Of a stretch of 51,933 nucleotides of DNA, positions 10,131 to 33,391 are shown piece by piece. The stretch's first letter is position 1. The number at the start of each line of letters is the position of its first letter. The translations under genes and the position numbers were made by a program. Under the pieces are notes generated by a model. That model was given only the letters and a program-made list of their open reading frames with translations, did no database searches and had not been told where the DNA came from. The stretch is taken from NCBI GenBank assembly GCA_015493225.1, contig WGDO01000035.1:1-51933 (forward strand). The letters run 5' to 3'. Source of the stretch: Patescibacteria group bacterium (GTDB lineage Bacteria; Patescibacteriota; Minisyncoccia; Moranbacterales; DUUL01).

Positions 10131-10148
10131 GTAGCGCCAAGGGGAATT
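10131..10148. repeat. Duplicate of the 3' end of tRNA-Glu
   Basis: GTAGCGCCAAGGGGAATT is identical to 10251-10268, the T-arm and acceptor 3' strand of tRNA-Glu plus one flanking base. It lies 120 bp downstream of the tRNA (in its sense direction). A similar layout exists at tRNA-Lys. Confidence 0.85.
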
Positions 10149-10204
10149 CTCTTCGAGCCTGGCAAATTTGGTCTTCGACAACAAATTTCCCTTCAATTAC
10201 TCAC

Positions 10205-10226
10205 GAAAGCCAAGCAGTTGGCTTTC
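10205..10226 (-). repeat. Hairpin between tRNA-Glu and its 3'-end copy
   Basis: Perfect 9-bp stem. On the tRNA strand the arms are GAAAGCCAA and TTGGCTTTC with loop CTGC. The hairpin after tRNA-Lys has the same outer GAAAG/CTTTC, the same inner AA-CTGC-TT and two compensating changes between them. It may act as terminator, processing signal or part of a mobile element. Confidence 0.75.
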
Positions 10227-10251
10227 TTTGTCACTACTTCACTTCGTTACG

Positions 10252-10323
10252 TAGCGCCAAGGGGAATTGAACCCCTGTTACCAGGATGAGAACCTGGCGT
10301 CCTAGCCACTAGACGATGGCGCC
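10252..10323 (-). tRNA. tRNA-Glu (anticodon CTC)
   Basis: 72-nt cloverleaf on the minus strand. Acceptor GGCGCCA pairs with TGGCGCT (one G-T), D-arm around GTCTAGTGGCTAGGAC, anticodon stem CCAGG/CCTGG with loop TTCTCAT giving anticodon CTC, T-arm AGGGG-TTCAATT-CCCCT. The 3' CCA is not encoded (next bases CG). D-arm and variable loop match tRNA-Glu. It is read in the same direction as the prenyltransferase genes downstream. Confidence 0.92.
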
Positions 10324-10767: not shown

Positions 10768-11932
10768 GCTTACAAAAGTAGAAATTTGATGGGTCTATTT
10801 GGGGACAAAAAACTTACTTTATACGATAACATCTACAAAAGTAGAAATTTGATGGGTCTATTTGGGAAGAGAAAAACAAATTGCCGAAAATGCATCTACA
10901 AAAGTAGAAATTTGATGGGTCTATTTGGGAACTTTACCTATGCCACCAACTGTAAAATCTACAAAAGTAGAAATTTGATGGGTCTATTTGGGACTCTATC
11001 AAAATGGTTGTTGGCAGTATCTACAAAAGTAGAAATTTGATGGGTCTATTTGGGATATTTTCAGAATTGTTTTACATCAAATCTACAAAAGTAGAAATTT
11101 GATGGGTCTATTTGGGGTATAGATAATAGCGATAATGACAGGTATCTACAAAAGTAGAAATTTGATGGGTCTATTTGGGTATCACGAATTGGCAAGAATG
11201 ATTTTAATCTACAAAAGTAGAAATTTGATGGGTCTATTTGGGATTATACCATAGTTGGAGTAACACTAATCTACAAAAGTAGAAATTTGATGGGTCTATT
11301 TGGGAGAATATCCTATTAAGAATAGTAGATTGATCTACAAAAGTAGAAATTTGATGGGTCTATTTGGGAAATTTAACAAACAATTCCACGGTGTAATCTA
11401 CAAAAGTAGAAATTTGATGGGTCTATTTGGGTGCTATTAAGAAAGTAGAAACTCCAGAATCTACAAAAGTAGAAATTTGATGGGTCTATTTGGGACTTAT
11501 TGGGTGTTAGATATGCTATATCTACAAAAGTAGAAATTTGATGGGTCTATTTGGGATATGCTAACAATAAAAATGGTAGGCAATCTACAAAAGTAGAAAT
11601 TTGATGGGTCTATTTGGGGAAATAGTTATAGGAGATGATAGACTATCTACAAAAGTAGAAATTTGATGGGTCTATTTGGGAAAACGCAAAAAAACTACAC
11701 GAAGTAGATCTACAAAAGTAGAAATTTGATGGGTCTATTTGGGCGTTTCTTTGGCCAGCTCTTCCGCCATATCTACAAAAGTAGAAATTTGATGGGTCTA
11801 TTTGGGGGCCGGGGCGGTCCTAGCAGGAGGCAAATCTACAAAAGTAGAAATTTGATGGGTCTATTTGGGTTACCCTAGGTTCTCCCCTCATCACCTATCT
11901 ACAAAAGTAGAAATTTGATGGGTCTATTTGGG
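10768..11932 (-). CRISPR. Type V-A CRISPR array, 19 repeats, 18 spacers
   Basis: Thirty-six-base repeats separated by spacers of 25-28 bases. On the minus strand the repeat starts CCCAAATAGACCCATC and ends AATTTCTACTTTTGTAGAT, the conserved Cas12a crRNA handle with stem TCTAC/GTAGA and loop TTTT. Repeats are identical by eye except the one at 10768-10803, whose handle ends GTAAGC; such decay marks the trailer end, so the leader is at 11933 beside cas2 and the array is read on the minus strand like the cas genes. The three leader-proximal spacers (11744-11770, 11807-11833, 11870-11896) are clearly richer in G+C than the others. Target identity cannot be told without searching. Confidence 0.98.
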
Positions 11933-14074: not shown

Positions 14075-17000
14075 TTATGTTGTATTATTTTGATTATTTC
14101 GAATAAATTCCAGCCCTCGTTTTGCGATGTTGTAAGAGGCTAAAGTATCAGAATTGTTACAAAAATCTAATCCTTCCCTTTTTTTCATATCAGAAGTATC
14201 AAAATTACAGTTTGCATTTATACATTTGTAATTATGAGAACCCCATTTTTCTGATTTATTAGGATTTTTAGTTTCACAATGTGGGCAATTTGAACTAGTT
14301 CCACTTGTTTTTATATAGCCCAAAATCCCAAGTTGAGTTATTTCTTTTTTACTTTGTAAATTCATCACTTGTTTATAAGTTGGAGGAACAAGATTTTTTG
14401 ATTTAAATTTTTGTAAAAGTTTCCATTCAATTCGACTCGCTAAATTTCCTGAAAATTCTGAAAGTCTTTTATTTTTATTATCCTCATTCAAATCCTCAAA
14501 AAACATCATTCCAAAATATTTTTCTTGTAAATAATTTAAAATTCCAACAGCATTGGCACAAAGAGCATCTCGTAAATTATTTATTTTTTCTATAGAAATA
14601 ACATCAACTTCTGCATTTTCTTTTTGTAAATCATTAAAGTATTTTTGTAACTCATTTTTGATAGAATCTAAAGTTAAAATATTCTCAAATCGTTTATCAA
14701 AGAAATATAAATTCTCATTTTCTAATTTCCCTCTATTTTCAATATTCAAAAATAAAGCTCCTTTTCCTGCATCAAAACAAATATTTTCTGATTTAAACTT
14801 TTGTTTTGAAAACCCTTCCCAAATTTTTCGTAAAGCACTTACTCTTTTTAATTCTAAATAAGTAGCAATATCTCCATTTATGACAATTTTATTTTTAATT
14901 AATTTTGCACAAGATAAATCAATACAATATTGATTTTCTTCTTTTTTTATAAAATTATCATCATTAATAACTTCTGAAATATTTTTATAACTTTCCGTTT
15001 TCCCATTTTTTTGTTCCAAATATTTTTCTGGTTTTAATTTCCAAATATCTAATTCTTGAGGAATTGGTTTGTTGTACCTACTAGTAGCACCATCTTGTTT
15101 TGTAAATTCTACTTTTCTTGTTTCAGAAAATTTAAAAATTCCTAAAGTTAAAAGTTCTTTTTGTCCTCGATCTAAACCGTAATAATAAATATCAAATGGA
15201 TTTTTAATATTTTTATTAAACTCTGTATTGTATTCATTAATAAAGGCTTTTATCTCATCTCGTGTTTTAAAAGATAGGTTTGCTTTTTTTTCGCGTGCTT
15301 GCTCAGTAATAGTTGTAGAAAGTAAAAATCGTTCTTTATTTTTTCTATTTTTCCCTAGTTTTCCTAAATCTCTTTTTTCTCCATATTTATCAACTATTTT
15401 TTCTTCTTGTTTTTCTATAAAACTTATCTTCAACTCTGGATTTAAACGGATTGAATATTTGTTTTCTTGATTTTCAGTTGTCCAAAAATCAAGCCAAACT
15501 CTCGTTTGTTTTTCTGGATTTTTTCGATCTAATTGTTTTTTGTTTTCTAAGTTTCCTAAAACTTCTTTATCATTTTTCTCCAAATCATAACTCGTAATTT
15601 TATATAAATTCCCTTGAAATTTATTGACTAAATCATTTTTTGTATCTTCTAAAATAGAGATTGCTTTTTTAAAATAGCAACTTTGTTTCATATCTTTTTC
15701 AAAGTCTTCTAATGAAGAATATTTGTTCTTAATAAAAGATTCAAAATCTACAAAATTATCAATCGCTAACATTTTTTTAGTTGACTTTAGTCCTAAAACT
15801 TTTTGGTAAAATTTAATGATTTCAAGATTGTCTTGTGAAAGCTCATGCTTCATTTTTAATTGCAAATAACCTTTTTTATTATAAAAAACAAAGTTTTCAT
15901 CTTTTTTTTGATTCTCAAAAAGTTCCTCTCTAATTTTGGGAGCAAAAGTGTTTTTGTCATACCCAAAGCATAATTTCTCTAATGCTCGTAAAGTAAGTGA
16001 TTCAAAAGAATAGAGTTTCCAATCTCCATTTTTTTCTTCTGAAATACTGTCTATATATTTTTTTGCTTTCAATAAATTTTCTTTTCCATCTCGTGGAATA
16101 GTACAAATATAATGCTGATTATCCTTCTCTAAAATTAAGGCCCAAGAATTTACTCGTTGTGCATCTATTTCTTCTTTTTCTAGACTTTTAATATTTGCTT
16201 TTACCTTACCTAATTCTACTGAAACATTTTTATAAAAATTACAAAATTTCTTATATTTATTGAAATTAAACATAAAGTGTTTTCCCCTTTCTTGAGCTTT
16301 TTCTTTAATCCTATTAGTTAATTTATTTTTTTCTTCTTTGTAATTTACTGAATCTTTATTCAACTGTAATCTTTGAGTTGCAAGCTCTGTAATTTTATTT
16401 GTTAATTTAACAAATTTATTAAAATTTTCTTCGCTAAAATCATTCATTAAACACAATCCTTTTTCTGTATTTAAAGTAGAAAAATATTTTTTGTCCGCTA
16501 TAAATTCCAAAAAATTTGATTTTTGTTTCGCTTTGTAAAGTTTGAAATTTTTATAAGCCTTCTGAATACTCCAGTTGTTTATTTGATCTAAATCTCCAAA
16601 TTCTTCAATTAACTTTTGATTGGCTTCAATACTTTCATCCAAACTTTCAATAAGATTTATTAAATTATCCTTAAAATTATTCGGAAAAGAAAATTTTATA
16701 TTTTTTCTTTGTTTGAAATCATAATATGAAAAGTTTATAAACTTTTCATCAAGTTTATTTTTTAATTTTTGTATTTCTTTTGGGTAATCTTTTGTTCTTT
16801 TATTTACCGTATAATAATTCAAACTCGCTTTTTCAATTACAATCCCCATTGATTGCATAGGAAGGAGAATTTTTTCTAAATCTAATAAAATTTTATTACA
16901 ATCTCTAATATTTTTCGCTATTTTTTGATAATCTTGACTCGTTTTATCTTGAATATTCCCATTAAATAATTCACGGATAAATTCAACATTGGGACGACTT

Positions 17001-17485
17001 AAAATTTGATGAATATAATATACTAAATCGGAAATTCGTTTTTGTGATTCTTCTGGTCTTTTTATAAACTCGTTTAAATTTTCTATCAATTCTTTATTCT
17101 TTTCAAACCAAAGTTCAAATCGCTCAAACAAAAAAGTTACTTTTTCATCAGAAAGAGAAACTTGATTGCTTTTTTTTCTTCCGTTTTTATAAATCACTAA
17201 TTTCTCTTTAACTTCATGAAACTCTCTTTTTGTATAAACTTTTAACCAAGAGTGTTTTATAGAAATATTAGAGTTTAAATATTTTTCATTATCATCATCT
17301 TCAGAAATTTTAAAAATAAGTTTTTCAAAATCTTGAATAATTTTCCCATATTTTTCTGTAAATTTTTTAGTTAAATCGATATAGCCTAATTGTTCTGTCG
17401 GCTTATACTCTCGTTTTATTTCTTGAGAATCAAGATTAAACCGCAGGGTTTTCGTGACTTCATACAAATTTTGGAAATTTTTCAT
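14075..17485 (-). CDS. cas12a2: Second type V effector, Cas12a2-like
   Basis: 1136 residues. The N-terminus FQNLYEVTKTLRFNL matches the Cas12a-type opening. RuvC residues: Asp772 in YYYGLDRG, Glu997 in FFEDLN and Asp1113 in SDTLASYNIAKRG. Between RuvC-II and RuvC-III, where Cas12a has its Nuc domain, this protein has a short zinc ribbon with Cys1067, Cys1070, Cys1088 and Cys1093. That swap, the co-location with Cas12a and the shared repeat type are the features of Cas12a2, an RNA-activated nuclease that degrades single- and double-stranded nucleic acids and causes abortive infection. Sequence divergence from Cas12a is high outside the motifs. The start is 37 bp after the cas12a stop, so they are probably co-transcribed. 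Assignment rests on motif reading; another unnamed Cas12 branch is possible. Confidence 0.8.
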   Translation of the reverse strand: MKNFQNLYEVTKTLRFNLDSQEIKREYKPTEQLGYIDLTKKFTEKYGKIIQDFEKLIFKISEDDDNEKYLNSNISIKHSWLKVYTKREFHEVKEKLVIYKNGRKKSNQVSLSDEKVTFLFERFELWFEKNKELIENLNEFIKRPEESQKRISDLVYYIHQILSRPNVEFIRELFNGNIQDKTSQDYQKIAKNIRDCNKILLDLEKILLPMQSMGIVIEKASLNYYTVNKRTKDYPKEIQKLKNKLDEKFINFSYYDFKQRKNIKFSFPNNFKDNLINLIESLDESIEANQKLIEEFGDLDQINNWSIQKAYKNFKLYKAKQKSNFLEFIADKKYFSTLNTEKGLCLMNDFSEENFNKFVKLTNKITELATQRLQLNKDSVNYKEEKNKLTNRIKEKAQERGKHFMFNFNKYKKFCNFYKNVSVELGKVKANIKSLEKEEIDAQRVNSWALILEKDNQHYICTIPRDGKENLLKAKKYIDSISEEKNGDWKLYSFESLTLRALEKLCFGYDKNTFAPKIREELFENQKKDENFVFYNKKGYLQLKMKHELSQDNLEIIKFYQKVLGLKSTKKMLAIDNFVDFESFIKNKYSSLEDFEKDMKQSCYFKKAISILEDTKNDLVNKFQGNLYKITSYDLEKNDKEVLGNLENKKQLDRKNPEKQTRVWLDFWTTENQENKYSIRLNPELKISFIEKQEEKIVDKYGEKRDLGKLGKNRKNKERFLLSTTITEQAREKKANLSFKTRDEIKAFINEYNTEFNKNIKNPFDIYYYGLDRGQKELLTLGIFKFSETRKVEFTKQDGATSRYNKPIPQELDIWKLKPEKYLEQKNGKTESYKNISEVINDDNFIKKEENQYCIDLSCAKLIKNKIVINGDIATYLELKRVSALRKIWEGFSKQKFKSENICFDAGKGALFLNIENRGKLENENLYFFDKRFENILTLDSIKNELQKYFNDLQKENAEVDVISIEKINNLRDALCANAVGILNYLQEKYFGMMFFEDLNEDNKNKRLSEFSGNLASRIEWKLLQKFKSKNLVPPTYKQVMNLQSKKEITQLGILGYIKTSGTSSNCPHCETKNPNKSEKWGSHNYKCINANCNFDTSDMKKREGLDFCNNSDTLASYNIAKRGLEFIRNNQNNTT

Positions 17486-17522: not shown

Positions 17523-20500
17523 TTACTTTTTCACCACAAAATTATCCCACTCCTCATTACTGATAAATAGGTTTGGAAATTTATTTTTTGTTGTTCGTTT
17601 TTCTTCTGGTGTTTTTTCCCATTCATCAATTCTTTGTAAAGTGATGATACCTTTTCTAGCAATATTATAGGCTCCATTGTCATCTCCATTTTTTGGTAAA
17701 TTTTTTCCAAATTTTCCCGAGTCCCTGCTGTCAAAAAATGGTTTTACTGGTGATAAAATAAAATCTTCATCAAATATTTTTTGAGAAATTTTTTGGTTTC
17801 TTGCATCAAATTTTTCTGACTCTTTTAATTTCTGAATTTCTTTGTGCAAATTTCCATCAGTATTTCTAATTTGACAAATAAGTCTAAAGTAAGCAATAAT
17901 TCCTTTTAGCAAATTAGCAGAATTGGAATTAAAAATTTGTTCTAAAATATTTCCCTGTAAATCAATATTTTCTTCTTTAAAAAGTTCTAATAGTTTTTCT
18001 GTGATAGTTTTTTCGTCTTTTGTTCTGTCGCAGTCCTTAGAACTAGCAGGATATTTTTTATAATCCCATTGATTATTTGTTTTTTCACTTCTAAATCCTC
18101 GCCATCGCTCTACACTGCTACAAACTCGCCATTCTTTTTTATTATAAGTGTAAACAAACTCAAAACGATTTTCTTTTTGATTCCAAACAATTTCATCAAA
18201 TTTTTCTTTTAACAATTTTGAGGTTTTTTTAATATTTTCATACTTTAAATACAAATGCGGTCGCCAACCAGTTATTGGGTCAATCTTTGAAGTATAACTA
18301 GCCGTAGTATAAAAAATAATACCCGTTTGTTTCCCCATATCTTTAAAAGCTTCCACAGGTGCCGTCAATTGATGGGCTTTTAAAACTCCGCCGATCTCAT
18401 CAGAATTTTTAGTCTTATCTACACAAAAACTCAATTTATCAAGCAATGCTTTTTCTAGTTGCTGATAGGCCGATTTTTCTATTCCTCCACGAATTTGTTT
18501 AAACCTCATATTTAAATCTTCAAACACTATAATTGCGTTATGTTCAATTGCCAAAGTTGCCAACTTATGAACAACTTGAGAAATATACCCCTTCTTTAAA
18601 TCTTTAATCGCTTCTACTGTTTGCCAATCTTTCCTTTGTTGTTCTCTGTCCTTAGCTCGCCTCTCTAATTCATGATGATAATCTTTTCCTCCTATTATAT
18701 TCAATGAATCGCTTTCAATAATATTCCCTTTTTGGCCAATCAAAGAATAATACGCTAAATGCTTTTCTCCTCGGTCTATTCCCAAAATATTTACATCGGG
18801 ATTATTCGCTAAAAAATTATTTATTTTATCGTTGAATTGGTAAGTGTTTGAACTACCCGCTGTTCTATTAAGTGTTGTGGGGAGATGAAAAAAAGTTTTA
18901 TTTTGAGTATATCGTTTTTTTTCAACAATACTATGAGAAGTTTCTTTATTATTTTTTGCTCTATTTACTTTTTTTGCTTCAATAGCTTTAGGTCGATAAA
19001 AAAGTTCTGCTTCACCGTTCATTTTGAATGGAAAATTTTGAGAAAAATTTTCTGAAGAAAATAAATTTTCAAAATAGAGAGTATGTAGATTCTTTTTTCC
19101 GGTAGCTTTCTTATTCCAGTCTTTATTTTTTATCTGAAATAAATATAATTCTCCGTCCTCATTTTTTCTTTGGATATATTTTTCAGAAATATTTTCCCAA
19201 GAAATTTTATAGCCTCCATTTTCTACCTCTCTATAAAATTCGCTTATATCTCTATAGGCATTAGTATCAGAAAATTTAAAATTAAATTCTTTCCAATCTT
19301 TATGCTTTTTAAGTGAAGCTTTGAAAAAATTAATTAGTATATGACAATCATCTAAATTAAAATCTCGCTTCTCATAGCCCTTCTGAGGTTGCCCACCTTT
19401 GGTATGACTAGAATGATTTCTAATTTCCAAAACTTTTTTTGATGGATTAAAAAATTCAATATTTGATTTACTAAAAAATACTTTTGGCAACATCTTATTA
19501 GCTCCTGGCAAAAGTTTGTATTCCATTTTTTCATACCCTTCTCCAGAAAACTCTTCTCGATTTTTTTCATCAAAAAGTTTATTATGACCTTTTTTCATAA
19601 TCCCCAAAAAATACTTTTCGTCCTTGCGTAATATAATAGAAGTATTGTCTGATTCCTTGTTTTTATCCCATCCTTTTGCCAAAGTAGGATTGAGAAAATT
19701 CAACTTCCACTTTTGCACTTCTTCCCATGGTTTTTTGGTTAAATAATTTCGCAAACGATTATACGGTTGCACAATTTTTTCGTAAGAGTCAACAAAAAAC
19801 TGATTATAATAAATATCATAAAATTCATCATTTAATTCAAAAAGTTCTGGATTCCATTGTGAACCCTTCTTTTTATCTACTTTTTCTAAAGAAAAATATT
19901 TTGAAAATTGATAAATCCATAAAAGATTATCTGCAAAAAGTTTTACCGTTGCTGTAAGTTCTTTTGTTTTTTCTAATTTTTCTTTTTTTAATAAATTTTC
20001 TAAGTTTTCAGCAAAAGCATGATAACCTTTATTTTCTTTTTTATTAGTCCCTTCTTTTAATATTAAAAATTCTTGCCAAAAAATTTGTAAAAATTGATGC
20101 CAAATATTTTCTTTTGTTGTATTTTTTTGTTCATATTTTTCTTTCCAAAACACATCTTCACCAGAAAAATCTTTAGCAATATTTTCTAAAGATTGTTTAA
20201 GATGTGAAAGAAGAATAAAATTTGGAAATTTATATCCTTTATCTTTTTGTTTTGTCATTTTCTCGCCATTTTTTCGTAACACTTCAGCAAGTTCCTCCTC
20301 CCATTTATATGTATCTGTAGAATATTTTCGAGAAATAGTTTCAAAACCTTTTTTGGTCCAATAAATTTTTTCTAAATCAAAATTTTCATTATTTTTTACA
20401 AAATCAGAAAATAATTCTTTTAAAACTTCTACCTTCTTGTTCCCTTCCTTTAAAAGATTTTCCAACTCCATTTTAAGCCCTGCTTCATTTTCAATTTCTT

Positions 20501-21470
20501 CAATAAATTTTTCCTTGGGACTTAAAATTTGTTTATCTAAAGTTTTAAGATGTTTAATTTTTACTTTGTTTTTTTGTTTGAATAAATTAGCTTCTTTTTT
20601 AATTTCCCCAACAATTTGATTATACCCGTCAATTCCTTTTCCAAATTTTTTATCACGTTCATTAGCTTTTTGACCTTGCAAAACAAACTGTCCAAAATTT
20701 TCTATATTCTGAATGAAATCTACTTTTTTATTATCTAAGGTTTTTAAAAAAATTGCATCATATTTTTCTAATAACCACTTATTTTCAAAACATCTTCGCA
20801 AATTATCCGTAATTCTTGTCGCAATCGCCGTTGAAGTTCCATCATCTTTATAAAAATTTTTTCTCGTTTCAAAAAATTTTTTAAAATAGCCCGTAAAACC
20901 TTTCCACCCTTCAAAAATAGAAACTTCTTTTTCTTCCAAAATTTCCCCTGTTTGTTTATTGATTTTTCTTAAAAATTCTGTTGTTCCTTTTGTATAACTA
21001 CCATCTTTATTTTTTCCATACAATGATAATAATACATTTTCAAAAACGCCTTCTTCATCTAAAAATTTAATATTTTTATTTTTCAATCCAGTAAACTTTT
21101 CTGTTGCCCAAAATTTTGCCATTTTATTAAAAGATTGCACCACTTCTTTTCTTATTTTTTTTTCTACTTTCTCTAATTCTTTTTTCAAAACTTTATTATT
21201 TCTATCTTCCGAAAAATTTTTTAGAGCTGTTTCATATTGGGATAAATTAGAAAATTGGAAATTTTTCAGACTCTCTTGCACAAATTTTCTATGAAGCTTG
21301 TCAAAATAAGGTTTCGTTTTAATATATTTGTCACGGATACTTTTATCAATTTGAAAAACATTATCTTCTTCTAAAAGTCTTTGCGTCCCCCCTACTGGTT
21401 TCAACTCAAATCGCAGGGTTTTACTTAGGGAGTATTGATTTATAAATTCATCAAATGTTTTTTTCGCCAT
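17523..21470 (-). CDS. cas12a: Cas12a (Cpf1) RNA-guided DNA nuclease
   Basis: 1315 residues, normal for Cas12a. The start INQYSLSKTLRFELKPVG is diagnostic. WED segment GWDKNKESDN (about 600-609), PAM-interacting LLPGANKMLPKVFFSKS (about 653-669), crRNA-processing histidine His862 in FFHLPTTLN, RuvC-I Asp899 (LGIDRGEKH), RuvC-II Glu984 (IVFEDLN), Nuc-domain Arg1202 (CQIRNTDG) and RuvC-III Asp1263 (GDDNGAYNIARKG) are all present, so it should be an active nuclease that processes its own crRNA and cuts double-stranded DNA. First gene of the cas run, with a promoter-like region upstream. A T-rich PAM is expected from the family. Confidence 0.97.
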   Translation of the reverse strand: MAKKTFDEFINQYSLSKTLRFELKPVGGTQRLLEEDNVFQIDKSIRDKYIKTKPYFDKLHRKFVQESLKNFQFSNLSQYETALKNFSEDRNNKVLKKELEKVEKKIRKEVVQSFNKMAKFWATEKFTGLKNKNIKFLDEEGVFENVLLSLYGKNKDGSYTKGTTEFLRKINKQTGEILEEKEVSIFEGWKGFTGYFKKFFETRKNFYKDDGTSTAIATRITDNLRRCFENKWLLEKYDAIFLKTLDNKKVDFIQNIENFGQFVLQGQKANERDKKFGKGIDGYNQIVGEIKKEANLFKQKNKVKIKHLKTLDKQILSPKEKFIEEIENEAGLKMELENLLKEGNKKVEVLKELFSDFVKNNENFDLEKIYWTKKGFETISRKYSTDTYKWEEELAEVLRKNGEKMTKQKDKGYKFPNFILLSHLKQSLENIAKDFSGEDVFWKEKYEQKNTTKENIWHQFLQIFWQEFLILKEGTNKKENKGYHAFAENLENLLKKEKLEKTKELTATVKLFADNLLWIYQFSKYFSLEKVDKKKGSQWNPELFELNDEFYDIYYNQFFVDSYEKIVQPYNRLRNYLTKKPWEEVQKWKLNFLNPTLAKGWDKNKESDNTSIILRKDEKYFLGIMKKGHNKLFDEKNREEFSGEGYEKMEYKLLPGANKMLPKVFFSKSNIEFFNPSKKVLEIRNHSSHTKGGQPQKGYEKRDFNLDDCHILINFFKASLKKHKDWKEFNFKFSDTNAYRDISEFYREVENGGYKISWENISEKYIQRKNEDGELYLFQIKNKDWNKKATGKKNLHTLYFENLFSSENFSQNFPFKMNGEAELFYRPKAIEAKKVNRAKNNKETSHSIVEKKRYTQNKTFFHLPTTLNRTAGSSNTYQFNDKINNFLANNPDVNILGIDRGEKHLAYYSLIGQKGNIIESDSLNIIGGKDYHHELERRAKDREQQRKDWQTVEAIKDLKKGYISQVVHKLATLAIEHNAIIVFEDLNMRFKQIRGGIEKSAYQQLEKALLDKLSFCVDKTKNSDEIGGVLKAHQLTAPVEAFKDMGKQTGIIFYTTASYTSKIDPITGWRPHLYLKYENIKKTSKLLKEKFDEIVWNQKENRFEFVYTYNKKEWRVCSSVERWRGFRSEKTNNQWDYKKYPASSKDCDRTKDEKTITEKLLELFKEENIDLQGNILEQIFNSNSANLLKGIIAYFRLICQIRNTDGNLHKEIQKLKESEKFDARNQKISQKIFDEDFILSPVKPFFDSRDSGKFGKNLPKNGDDNGAYNIARKGIITLQRIDEWEKTPEEKRTTKNKFPNLFISNEEWDNFVVKK

Positions 21471-33123: not shown

Positions 33124-33196
33124 GGGCGCATAGCTCAGTTGGTAGAGCAACAGCCTTTTAAGCTGATGGTCGGGGGTTCAAATCCCTCTGCGCCCA
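33124..33196 (+). tRNA. tRNA-Lys (anticodon TTT)
   Basis: 73-nt cloverleaf: acceptor GGGCGCA/TGCGCCC, D-arm GCTCAGTTGGTAGAGC, anticodon loop CTTTTAA (anticodon TTT) on a stem with one A-A at its outer end, T-arm GGGGG-TTCAAAT-CCCTC with one G-T pair and discriminator A. CCA is not encoded. Confidence 0.95.
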
Positions 33197-33222
33197 CACA
33201 AATAAGTCACAATATACTTGAA
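33180..33222 (+). repeat. Direct repeat covering the tRNA-Lys 3' end (copy 1)
   Basis: The 43 bp from the T-arm through 26 bp of downstream sequence (beginning AAATCCCTCTGCGCCC) recur at 33328-33370 with one C to T change. Confidence 0.92.
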
Positions 33223-33249
33223 TAAGAAGTAATCTTCTAAATTAAATAA

Positions 33250-33273
33250 GGAAAGTGAACTGCTTCACTTTCC
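33250..33273 (+). repeat. Hairpin between tRNA-Lys and its 3'-end copy
   Basis: Perfect 10-bp stem GGAAAGTGAA / TTCACTTTCC with loop CTGC. It matches the hairpin beside tRNA-Glu apart from two compensating base-pair changes. Confidence 0.8.
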
Positions 33274-33327
33274 TTCCGAGGATTTGAAGTTATTTTTTTT
33301 GCTAAAAAATTAACTGGCCCAGCGGGC

Positions 33328-33391
33328 AAATCCCTCTGTGCCCACACAAATAAGTCACAATATACTTGAACTAAGTAACAATACACTTGAA
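33328..33391 (+). repeat. Second copy of tRNA-Lys 3' end, plus a decayed third fragment
   Basis: 33328-33370 matches 33180-33222 at 42 of 43 bases. The next 21 bases (33371-33391) look like a decayed further copy of its last part (TAAGTAACAATACACTTGAA versus TAAGTCACAATATACTTGAA). No gene seen up to 33521. Confidence 0.88.

Follow-up and report, generated by a model that had tools for sequence, protein, structure and literature searches.

Behind transfer RNA (tRNA) and transfer-messenger RNA (tmRNA) genes of Patescibacteria and Elusimicrobiota we found a family of short, non-coding, structured inserts, each with a displaced copy of the tRNA 3′ end and with internal arms complementary to the tRNA that it follows. 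The starting point was contig WGDO01000035.1 of assembly GCA_015493225.1 (positions 1–51,933, henceforth the window), which comes from a Patescibacteria group bacterium of the order Moranbacterales and contains two tRNA genes, tRNA-Lys(ttt) and tRNA-Glu(ctc), each with its own downstream insert. Our computations establish the family, its linkage to tRNAs and the match between arms and host tRNAs, and the elements are likely to be mobile. Our preferred reading, to which we give a probability of roughly 0.5, is that they are minimal non-coding mobile elements (about 100–170 bp) that are specific for the T loop of tRNA and tmRNA genes and are moved in trans, with the arms serving as an address. 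No described family known to us combines these features, and literature searches, made mostly without subscription papers, found no description of one.

Anatomy of the inserts in the window

The tRNA-Lys(ttt) gene is intact (33124–33197) and lies, like all parts of its insert, on the forward strand. A direct repeat of 44 nt that begins in the T loop (33179–33222 and 33327–33370, 43/44 identical, 148 nt from start to start) has the last 19 nt of the gene (33179–33197) as its left copy, while on the right the displaced tRNA 3′ end, starting in the T loop, occupies 33327–33345 and the repeat continues to 33370. The initial annotation had recognised this repeat at the same spacing, as 42/43 matches, together with the hairpin between its copies and a decayed third fragment; all three are present. 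Specifically, a spacer of 52 nt (33198–33249), the first 25 nt of which belong to the direct repeat, leads from the tRNA end to hairpin 1 (GGAAAGTGAA-CTGC-TTCACTTTCC, 33250–33273). It is followed by the arm GAGGATTTG (33278–33286), which complements the gene's own T arm CAAATCCCTC and precedes a conserved GAA, by hairpin 2 (GTTATTTTTTT-TGCT-AAAAAATTAAC, 33289–33314) and by hairpin 3 (GCCC-AGC-GGGC, 33317–33327). The decayed fragment, AAGTAACAATACACTTGAAC, was located by eye at about 33372–33391.

The second element of the window (10131–10226, covariance-model expect value (E) 5.5e-7) stands behind the intact tRNA-Glu(ctc) gene (10251–10323), both on the reverse strand. It shows the order hairpin 1 (GAAAGCCAACTGCTTGGCTTTC, 10226–10205, similar in outline to that of tRNA-Lys), arm TAATTG, hairpins 2 and 3, and tRNA 3′ end copy (10148–10131); here the last 18 nt of the gene are repeated 120 nt apart (10131–10148 and 10251–10268). 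The two compensating pair changes that had been noted between the tRNA-Lys and tRNA-Glu hairpins (CC/GG to TG/CA) proved real.

One tRNA-linked family in many genomes

A DNA search with the tRNA-Lys insert returned further sites on other contigs of the same genome, the strong ones being behind tRNAs (as recognised by the RF00005 model). Inspection of the sequence downstream of 50 tRNAs revealed a common anatomy: an intact tRNA is followed by a spacer, hairpin 1 with loop CTGC, an anti-T arm, two more hairpins (2 and 3) and, from the T loop onwards, a copy of that tRNA's 3′ end. This order was seen at Ala(tgc), Ala(ggc), Arg(tct), Gln(ctg), Glu(ctc), Ile, Lys, Tyr and Val. The order was also kept at Glu(ttc), where hairpin 1 is interrupted, and partial versions were found behind Gln(ttg) and Pro. 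In several copies of this genome other palindromic repeats are nested in the loop of hairpin 1 or just ahead of the tRNA end copy, as if they preferred hairpin tips: the palindrome CCCCAGTCATTCGACGGGG lies ahead of the copy at Ile (L007) and Ala(ggc) (L030), and another is found inside the hairpin-1 loop at Glu(ttc) (L028) and in the second Ala(tgc) unit (L007).

The covariance model was built from six unedited copies (alignment A3); two edited alignments, A1 (two rows, nested palindrome removed) and A2 (one row), were exploratory only. When run against the 1.3-Mb genome of origin, the model found 14 sites at E up to about 0.3, every one of them behind a tRNA, and about a dozen of the genome's some 50 tRNAs bear an element. 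At E up to 0.01, and counting the genome of origin, matches were obtained in 22 of 131 genomes of the order and in 32 of 238 of the class. A same-strand tRNA was present at most 200 nt ahead (median 30 nt) in 41 of 55 fetched loci, where about 0.6% would be expected; this fraction is a lower bound, given that several of the other loci were truncated where a contig stops or follow a tRNA-like 3′ end missed by ARAGORN. The covariance search thus placed the hairpin neither at random positions nor at its original sites alone.

An independent scan of named genomes with the hairpin-1 pattern gave at least 112 loci, mainly in Patescibacteria of many orders and in Elusimicrobiota. Among the matches listed, the bare pattern fell within 200 nt behind a tRNA in 72 of 118 cases, and two further matches (L211 and L228) were directly behind tmRNA, which also has a T arm. 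Four matches to the pattern in viral contigs all came from an unrelated Mesorhizobium-type repeat. In Rfam, at gathering and relaxed thresholds, tRNA alone scored above its gathering score, with the rest at chance level and no group I or group II intron or other RNA family detected. The initial annotation had proposed one element family specific for tRNA 3′ ends; the single tRNA-linked family stands, whereas the specificity has to be restated, as the junction is in the T loop after C56 and tmRNA genes are hit as well.

Covariation of the hairpins

To quantify conservation of structure, we used an alignment of 47 distinct elements, which was fitted to the covariance model and is thus biased towards the model's structure. 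Pairing is seen in 92% of its cells, against 70% in shuffles, and both sides have changed in 27 of 31 pairs. The covariation score reaches 0.525, compared with 0.156 in shuffles and less than 0.12 for slid structures. Even with a model-fitted alignment, hairpins 1 and 2 are clear: the helix of hairpin 1 is paired in 99.8% of cells with double changes in 7 of its 9 pairs, and hairpin 2 has double changes in all 11. The covariation includes G-U pairs, as in RNA, and when tRNA and element are folded together as a single strand, the stability far exceeds that of shuffles (z about -4.8). Because all 14 model sites are found behind tRNAs and the covariation score so exceeds that of shuffles, chance is excluded as the origin of the tRNA-Lys and tRNA-Glu inserts, which are two of about 14 in their genome.

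One could also suppose that no mobile element is involved at all, and that tRNA 3′ ends were duplicated in tandem and then received repetitive extragenic palindromic (REP)-type palindromes secondarily. Palindromes do nest in the copies at Ile, Ala(ggc), Glu(ttc) and the second Ala unit, but the fixed order of arm, hairpins and junction, with covariation across the class and arms specific to each tRNA, already disfavours this account, which we find very hard to credit.

Arms and displaced copies match the host tRNA

The displaced copy has at most 2 mismatches in 17 positions to the tail of its own tRNA in 66 of 120 elements, whereas comparisons with foreign tails reach this level in 10 of 2376 cases. 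The arms, a feature that the initial annotation had not described, are likewise matched. In the 79 elements whose copy is recognisable, we determined the longest Watson-Crick run without interruption, both with the element's own tRNA and with permuted tRNAs. The anti-T run (T part of the tRNA against the 22 nt after hairpin 1) averaged 6.99 as opposed to 4.33 for permuted tRNAs (sd 0.11), and the anti-acceptor run (acceptor part against the 28 nt before hairpin 1) averaged 4.70 as opposed to 3.26 (sd 0.09), while exchanging the two arm windows gave no excess of complementarity in the same 79 elements. By eye, the anti-T arm is the only one present in the genome of origin; in other lineages an anti-acceptor arm is often present, and the pair is then split by hairpin 1. 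A variant with a continuous arm against the tRNA 3′ half, lacking hairpin 1, was seen in the genome of origin at Gly(tcc) (L035), the second Tyr unit (L018) and Ser(tga) (L045), and also in genome G063 (L318).

One option is that the arms are a safety device which sequesters the displaced 3′ half and keeps it from competing in tRNA folding, possibly in an element that is still mobile. Pairing between copy and internal arms is indeed strongly supported by covariation, and the 5′-half remnants left at tRNAs by a separate GIY-YIG insertion (described below) hold inserted hairpins too (in L142 and L144, TACCCGC is complementary to the remnant's GCGGGGTA). However, at differences between tRNA and copy it is more often the tRNA to which the arm is complementary, by 65 to 18 in a count that takes in some badly placed copies and by 14 to 4 in the small strict subset of near-perfect copies. 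Moreover, arms are about as strong in elements with a degenerate copy as elsewhere, and the anti-T run, which spans the C56/R57 junction in 71 of 120 elements, often reaches over T54–C56, i.e., positions that are absent from the copy. Considering this, we regard sequestration as a rather unlikely role.

Presence, absence and probable spread between tRNAs

A comparison of occupied and empty tRNA sites gave an exact empty site among related species at tRNA-Ser(cga), which is occupied in G059 and empty in its congeners G062 and G060. The insert is exactly 119 bp with a 19-bp repeat (GAATCCCTCCCTTTCCTCA); the occupied site reads GGTTC, then the inserted piece (GAATCCCTCCCTTTCCTCA followed by the element), then GAATCCCTCCCTTTCCTCAACGG, and both flanks are nearly identical to those of the empty congeners. 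In another genus, behind tRNA-Met of nine congeners, one unit is found in G077, G078, G081 and G082 and three tandem units in G084, with none in G074, G075, G080 and G085. Both patterns would fit gain as well as precise loss.

Within the genome of origin, cores were compared after masking arm and copy. Those of Ala(tgc) and Tyr are 92% identical, with arms AGGACTCG and GGGTTTG, respectively, and those of Arg, Val and Lys are 83–86% identical, with different arms that each fit their own tRNA. Near-identical cores with tRNA-fitted arms thus suggest that core sequence travelled between tRNAs while the arm changed.

Another possibility is a host RNA function, namely that the insert is a tRNA-like or antisense trailer which controls processing, termination or amount of the upstream tRNA and is kept as useful. 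RNA-like covariation with G-U pairs, very stable folds, arms that fit the host tRNA and a spread over Patescibacteria and Elusimicrobiota would all suit such a trailer. On the other hand, presence at orthologous tRNAs is patchy within one genus, the number of tandem units varies, and only about a dozen of some 50 tRNAs of the genome of origin are served, with other tRNAs in other species, so we judge a host function unlikely.

A model of insertion and the search for a mobilising enzyme

According to our preferred reading, i.e., small T-loop-specific elements moved in trans, insertion into tRNA and tmRNA genes would always use one T-loop position, between C56 and R57. A complete 3′ half would come with the insert and so keep the tRNA whole, and the original 3′ half would become the right-hand copy; insertion of this kind would explain the anatomy, the empty site and the tandem units. 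The element strand is predicted to fold into hairpin 1 followed by a three-way junction of hairpins 2 and 3, closed by pairing between the internal arm and the copy. During insertion the arm (anti-T and, in many lineages, also anti-acceptor) may act as the address by pairing with an empty site in a gene for the same tRNA or a similar one, with a trans-acting enzyme presumably doing the cutting and joining. Complementarity to the intact site on either side of the junction is the form that an address would be expected to take, the main rivals being sequestration and a host function. The T loop hardly varies between tRNAs, so that an element could occasionally arrive at a different tRNA, to which its arm would adapt afterwards. 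Active transposition, rather than loss only, is inferred in this model, as are the addressing role of the arms and the enzyme. In a bolder form of the model the element would be guided by nucleic acid: arms fitting one tRNA's T arm and acceptor, as the element's own RNA or single strand, would direct insertion into the T loop and be retargetable by mutation, which would explain the spread over different tRNAs of one genome. We put this guide role forward as a tentative hypothesis, and a somewhat doubtful one.

Several observations weigh against the preferred reading. The empty-site pair at tRNA-Ser(cga) could also reflect precise loss by recombination across the 19-bp repeat, and a related element occurs at the same tRNA-Ser in G064. 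The repeat is not constant in length, extending 20–25 nt past the tRNA end at Lys and Arg in the genome of origin. Many elements keep matched arms despite a degenerate copy, as an RNA with a function in the host also might. Finally, an open reading frame between the tRNA and its displaced end was found in no copy, up to the ends of 8-kb loci.

A search for long, gene-bearing versions via farther copies of the tRNA tail, in loci of up to 8 kb, found none and so brought up no mobilising enzyme. Two candidates were considered. Y1 transposase (PF01797) is encoded in 8 of 12 element-bearing genomes and absent from G084, G072, G174 and G147, which makes it a doubtful mobiliser. GIY-YIG proteins, attractive for the position of their genes just ahead of tRNAs, were rejected: G226 (100% complete, with four elements) has a single weak match to small proteins of this kind; no GIY-YIG gene was found inside the elements, the inserts being too short for a gene, and the GIY-YIG genes that adjoin tRNAs upstream belong to a separate 5′-half insertion.

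Comparison with known systems

A close parallel exists with genomic islands and satellites integrated into tRNA and tmRNA genes, which restore the gene and leave a displaced 3′ fragment at the far end, the T loop being one of the places of crossover (Islander, PMC4383910). The elements resemble such tyrosine-integrase islands in their tRNA and tmRNA targets, the restored gene, the displaced fragment of the same tRNA and the tandem arrays; they differ in that the islands are multigene and carry an integrase, whereas the elements are non-coding, structured and equipped with arms complementary to the host tRNA. They could in principle be non-autonomous satellites of integrase elements, with the repeat as a T-loop attachment (att) site and the integrase encoded elsewhere. 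A restored tRNA, a displaced fragment and a T-loop crossover make up the classical integration signature (PMC4383910), and tandem arrays are compatible with repeated integration. Yet none of the copies seen carries an integrase gene, a single family on quite different tRNA 3′ ends is unexpected for a fixed-site integrase, and complementary arms and covarying hairpins are foreign to known att sites; a satellite origin of this kind therefore appears improbable.

Miniature inverted-repeat transposable elements (MITEs) of DDE transposons differ from the family, whose ends are the tRNA itself without terminal inverted repeats, and whose repeat length is not fixed (19 bp at tRNA-Ser(cga), 44 at Lys, 18 at Glu). 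The double-hairpin elements known from fungal mitochondria are similarly short, non-coding, made of hairpins and apparently mobile (Paquin et al. 2000, cited in PMC5910586). A further likeness is that a second element type in the genome of origin (described below) places two hairpins into the T loops of tRNA-end copies. To our knowledge, double-hairpin elements are not tied to tRNA 3′ ends and lack target-complementary arms.

Mobile elements that match a guide to their target include group II introns with their exon- and intron-binding sequences (EBS/IBS), IS200/IS605 with its guide sequences and IS110 with its bridge RNA. As in these, an internal segment of the element pairs with the target beside the insertion point and changes with the target, and in IS200/IS605 such a segment also lies next to a subterminal hairpin. 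The difference is that none of their proteins or RNA families is found in the elements, that Rfam gives no match and that Y1 is missing from several bearing genomes. Free-standing GIY-YIG insertions, in turn, share with the elements their place at tRNA genes, in the same species, as well as the restored tRNA and a half-tRNA remnant into which hairpins are inserted. Unlike the elements, they code for a GIY-YIG protein and are located ahead of the tRNA, and the remnant is a 5′ half with its cut in the anticodon loop.

Other inserts at tRNA genes and neighbouring loci

The tRNA genes of these bacteria seem to host several kinds of small insert. A second, smaller type copies the T arm but has, in place of the T loop, one or two hairpins of the type TCA[C/G]CCTAAACGG[G/C]TGA, and was seen in the genome of origin at Val(gac) (L016), Lys(ctt) (L014), Met (L011 and L033), Cys (L036), Ser(gga) (L050) and Thr(tgt) (L018). 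In a third type, hairpins are inserted in a 5′ half that is cut in the anticodon loop, and a GIY-YIG gene and then the whole tRNA follow (L129, L142 and L144). In 14 of 34 GIY-YIG loci the gene was 33–141 nt upstream of a tRNA, and these small genes directly ahead of tRNAs are probably free-standing tRNA-directed homing elements. Behind tRNA-Val (L075) and tRNA-Met (L011) we also found tRNA-like sequences interrupted by an apparent group I intron.

The window additionally contains a type V CRISPR locus with an array at 10768–11932 and two effectors on the reverse strand, at 14075–17485 and 17523–21470, namely Cas12a and another effector, which among PDB sequences matches only Cas12a3. Cas12a3 has been reported to cut tRNA 3′ tails while gripping the acceptor stem and T arm (PMC12851939). 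Elsewhere, contig C68 of G000 (L054, 10.8 kb) carries clusters of CCA-encoding tRNAs, unlike most of the genome, and is possibly foreign or phage-like.

Significance

Genes for tRNAs are a classical landing site of mobile DNA, which in the known cases brings an integrase with it. Here, non-coding inserts of little over 100 bp have colonised tRNA and tmRNA genes across much of Patescibacteria and in Elusimicrobiota while leaving the host tRNA intact, and their clean coming and going between related species suggests minimal mobile elements directed at tRNA genes, of a kind so far undescribed. The family would consist either of extremely small, self-addressing mobile elements or of an undescribed but widespread RNA with an action on the upstream tRNA; both readings are testable, and both affect how tRNA genes are annotated in these genomes.
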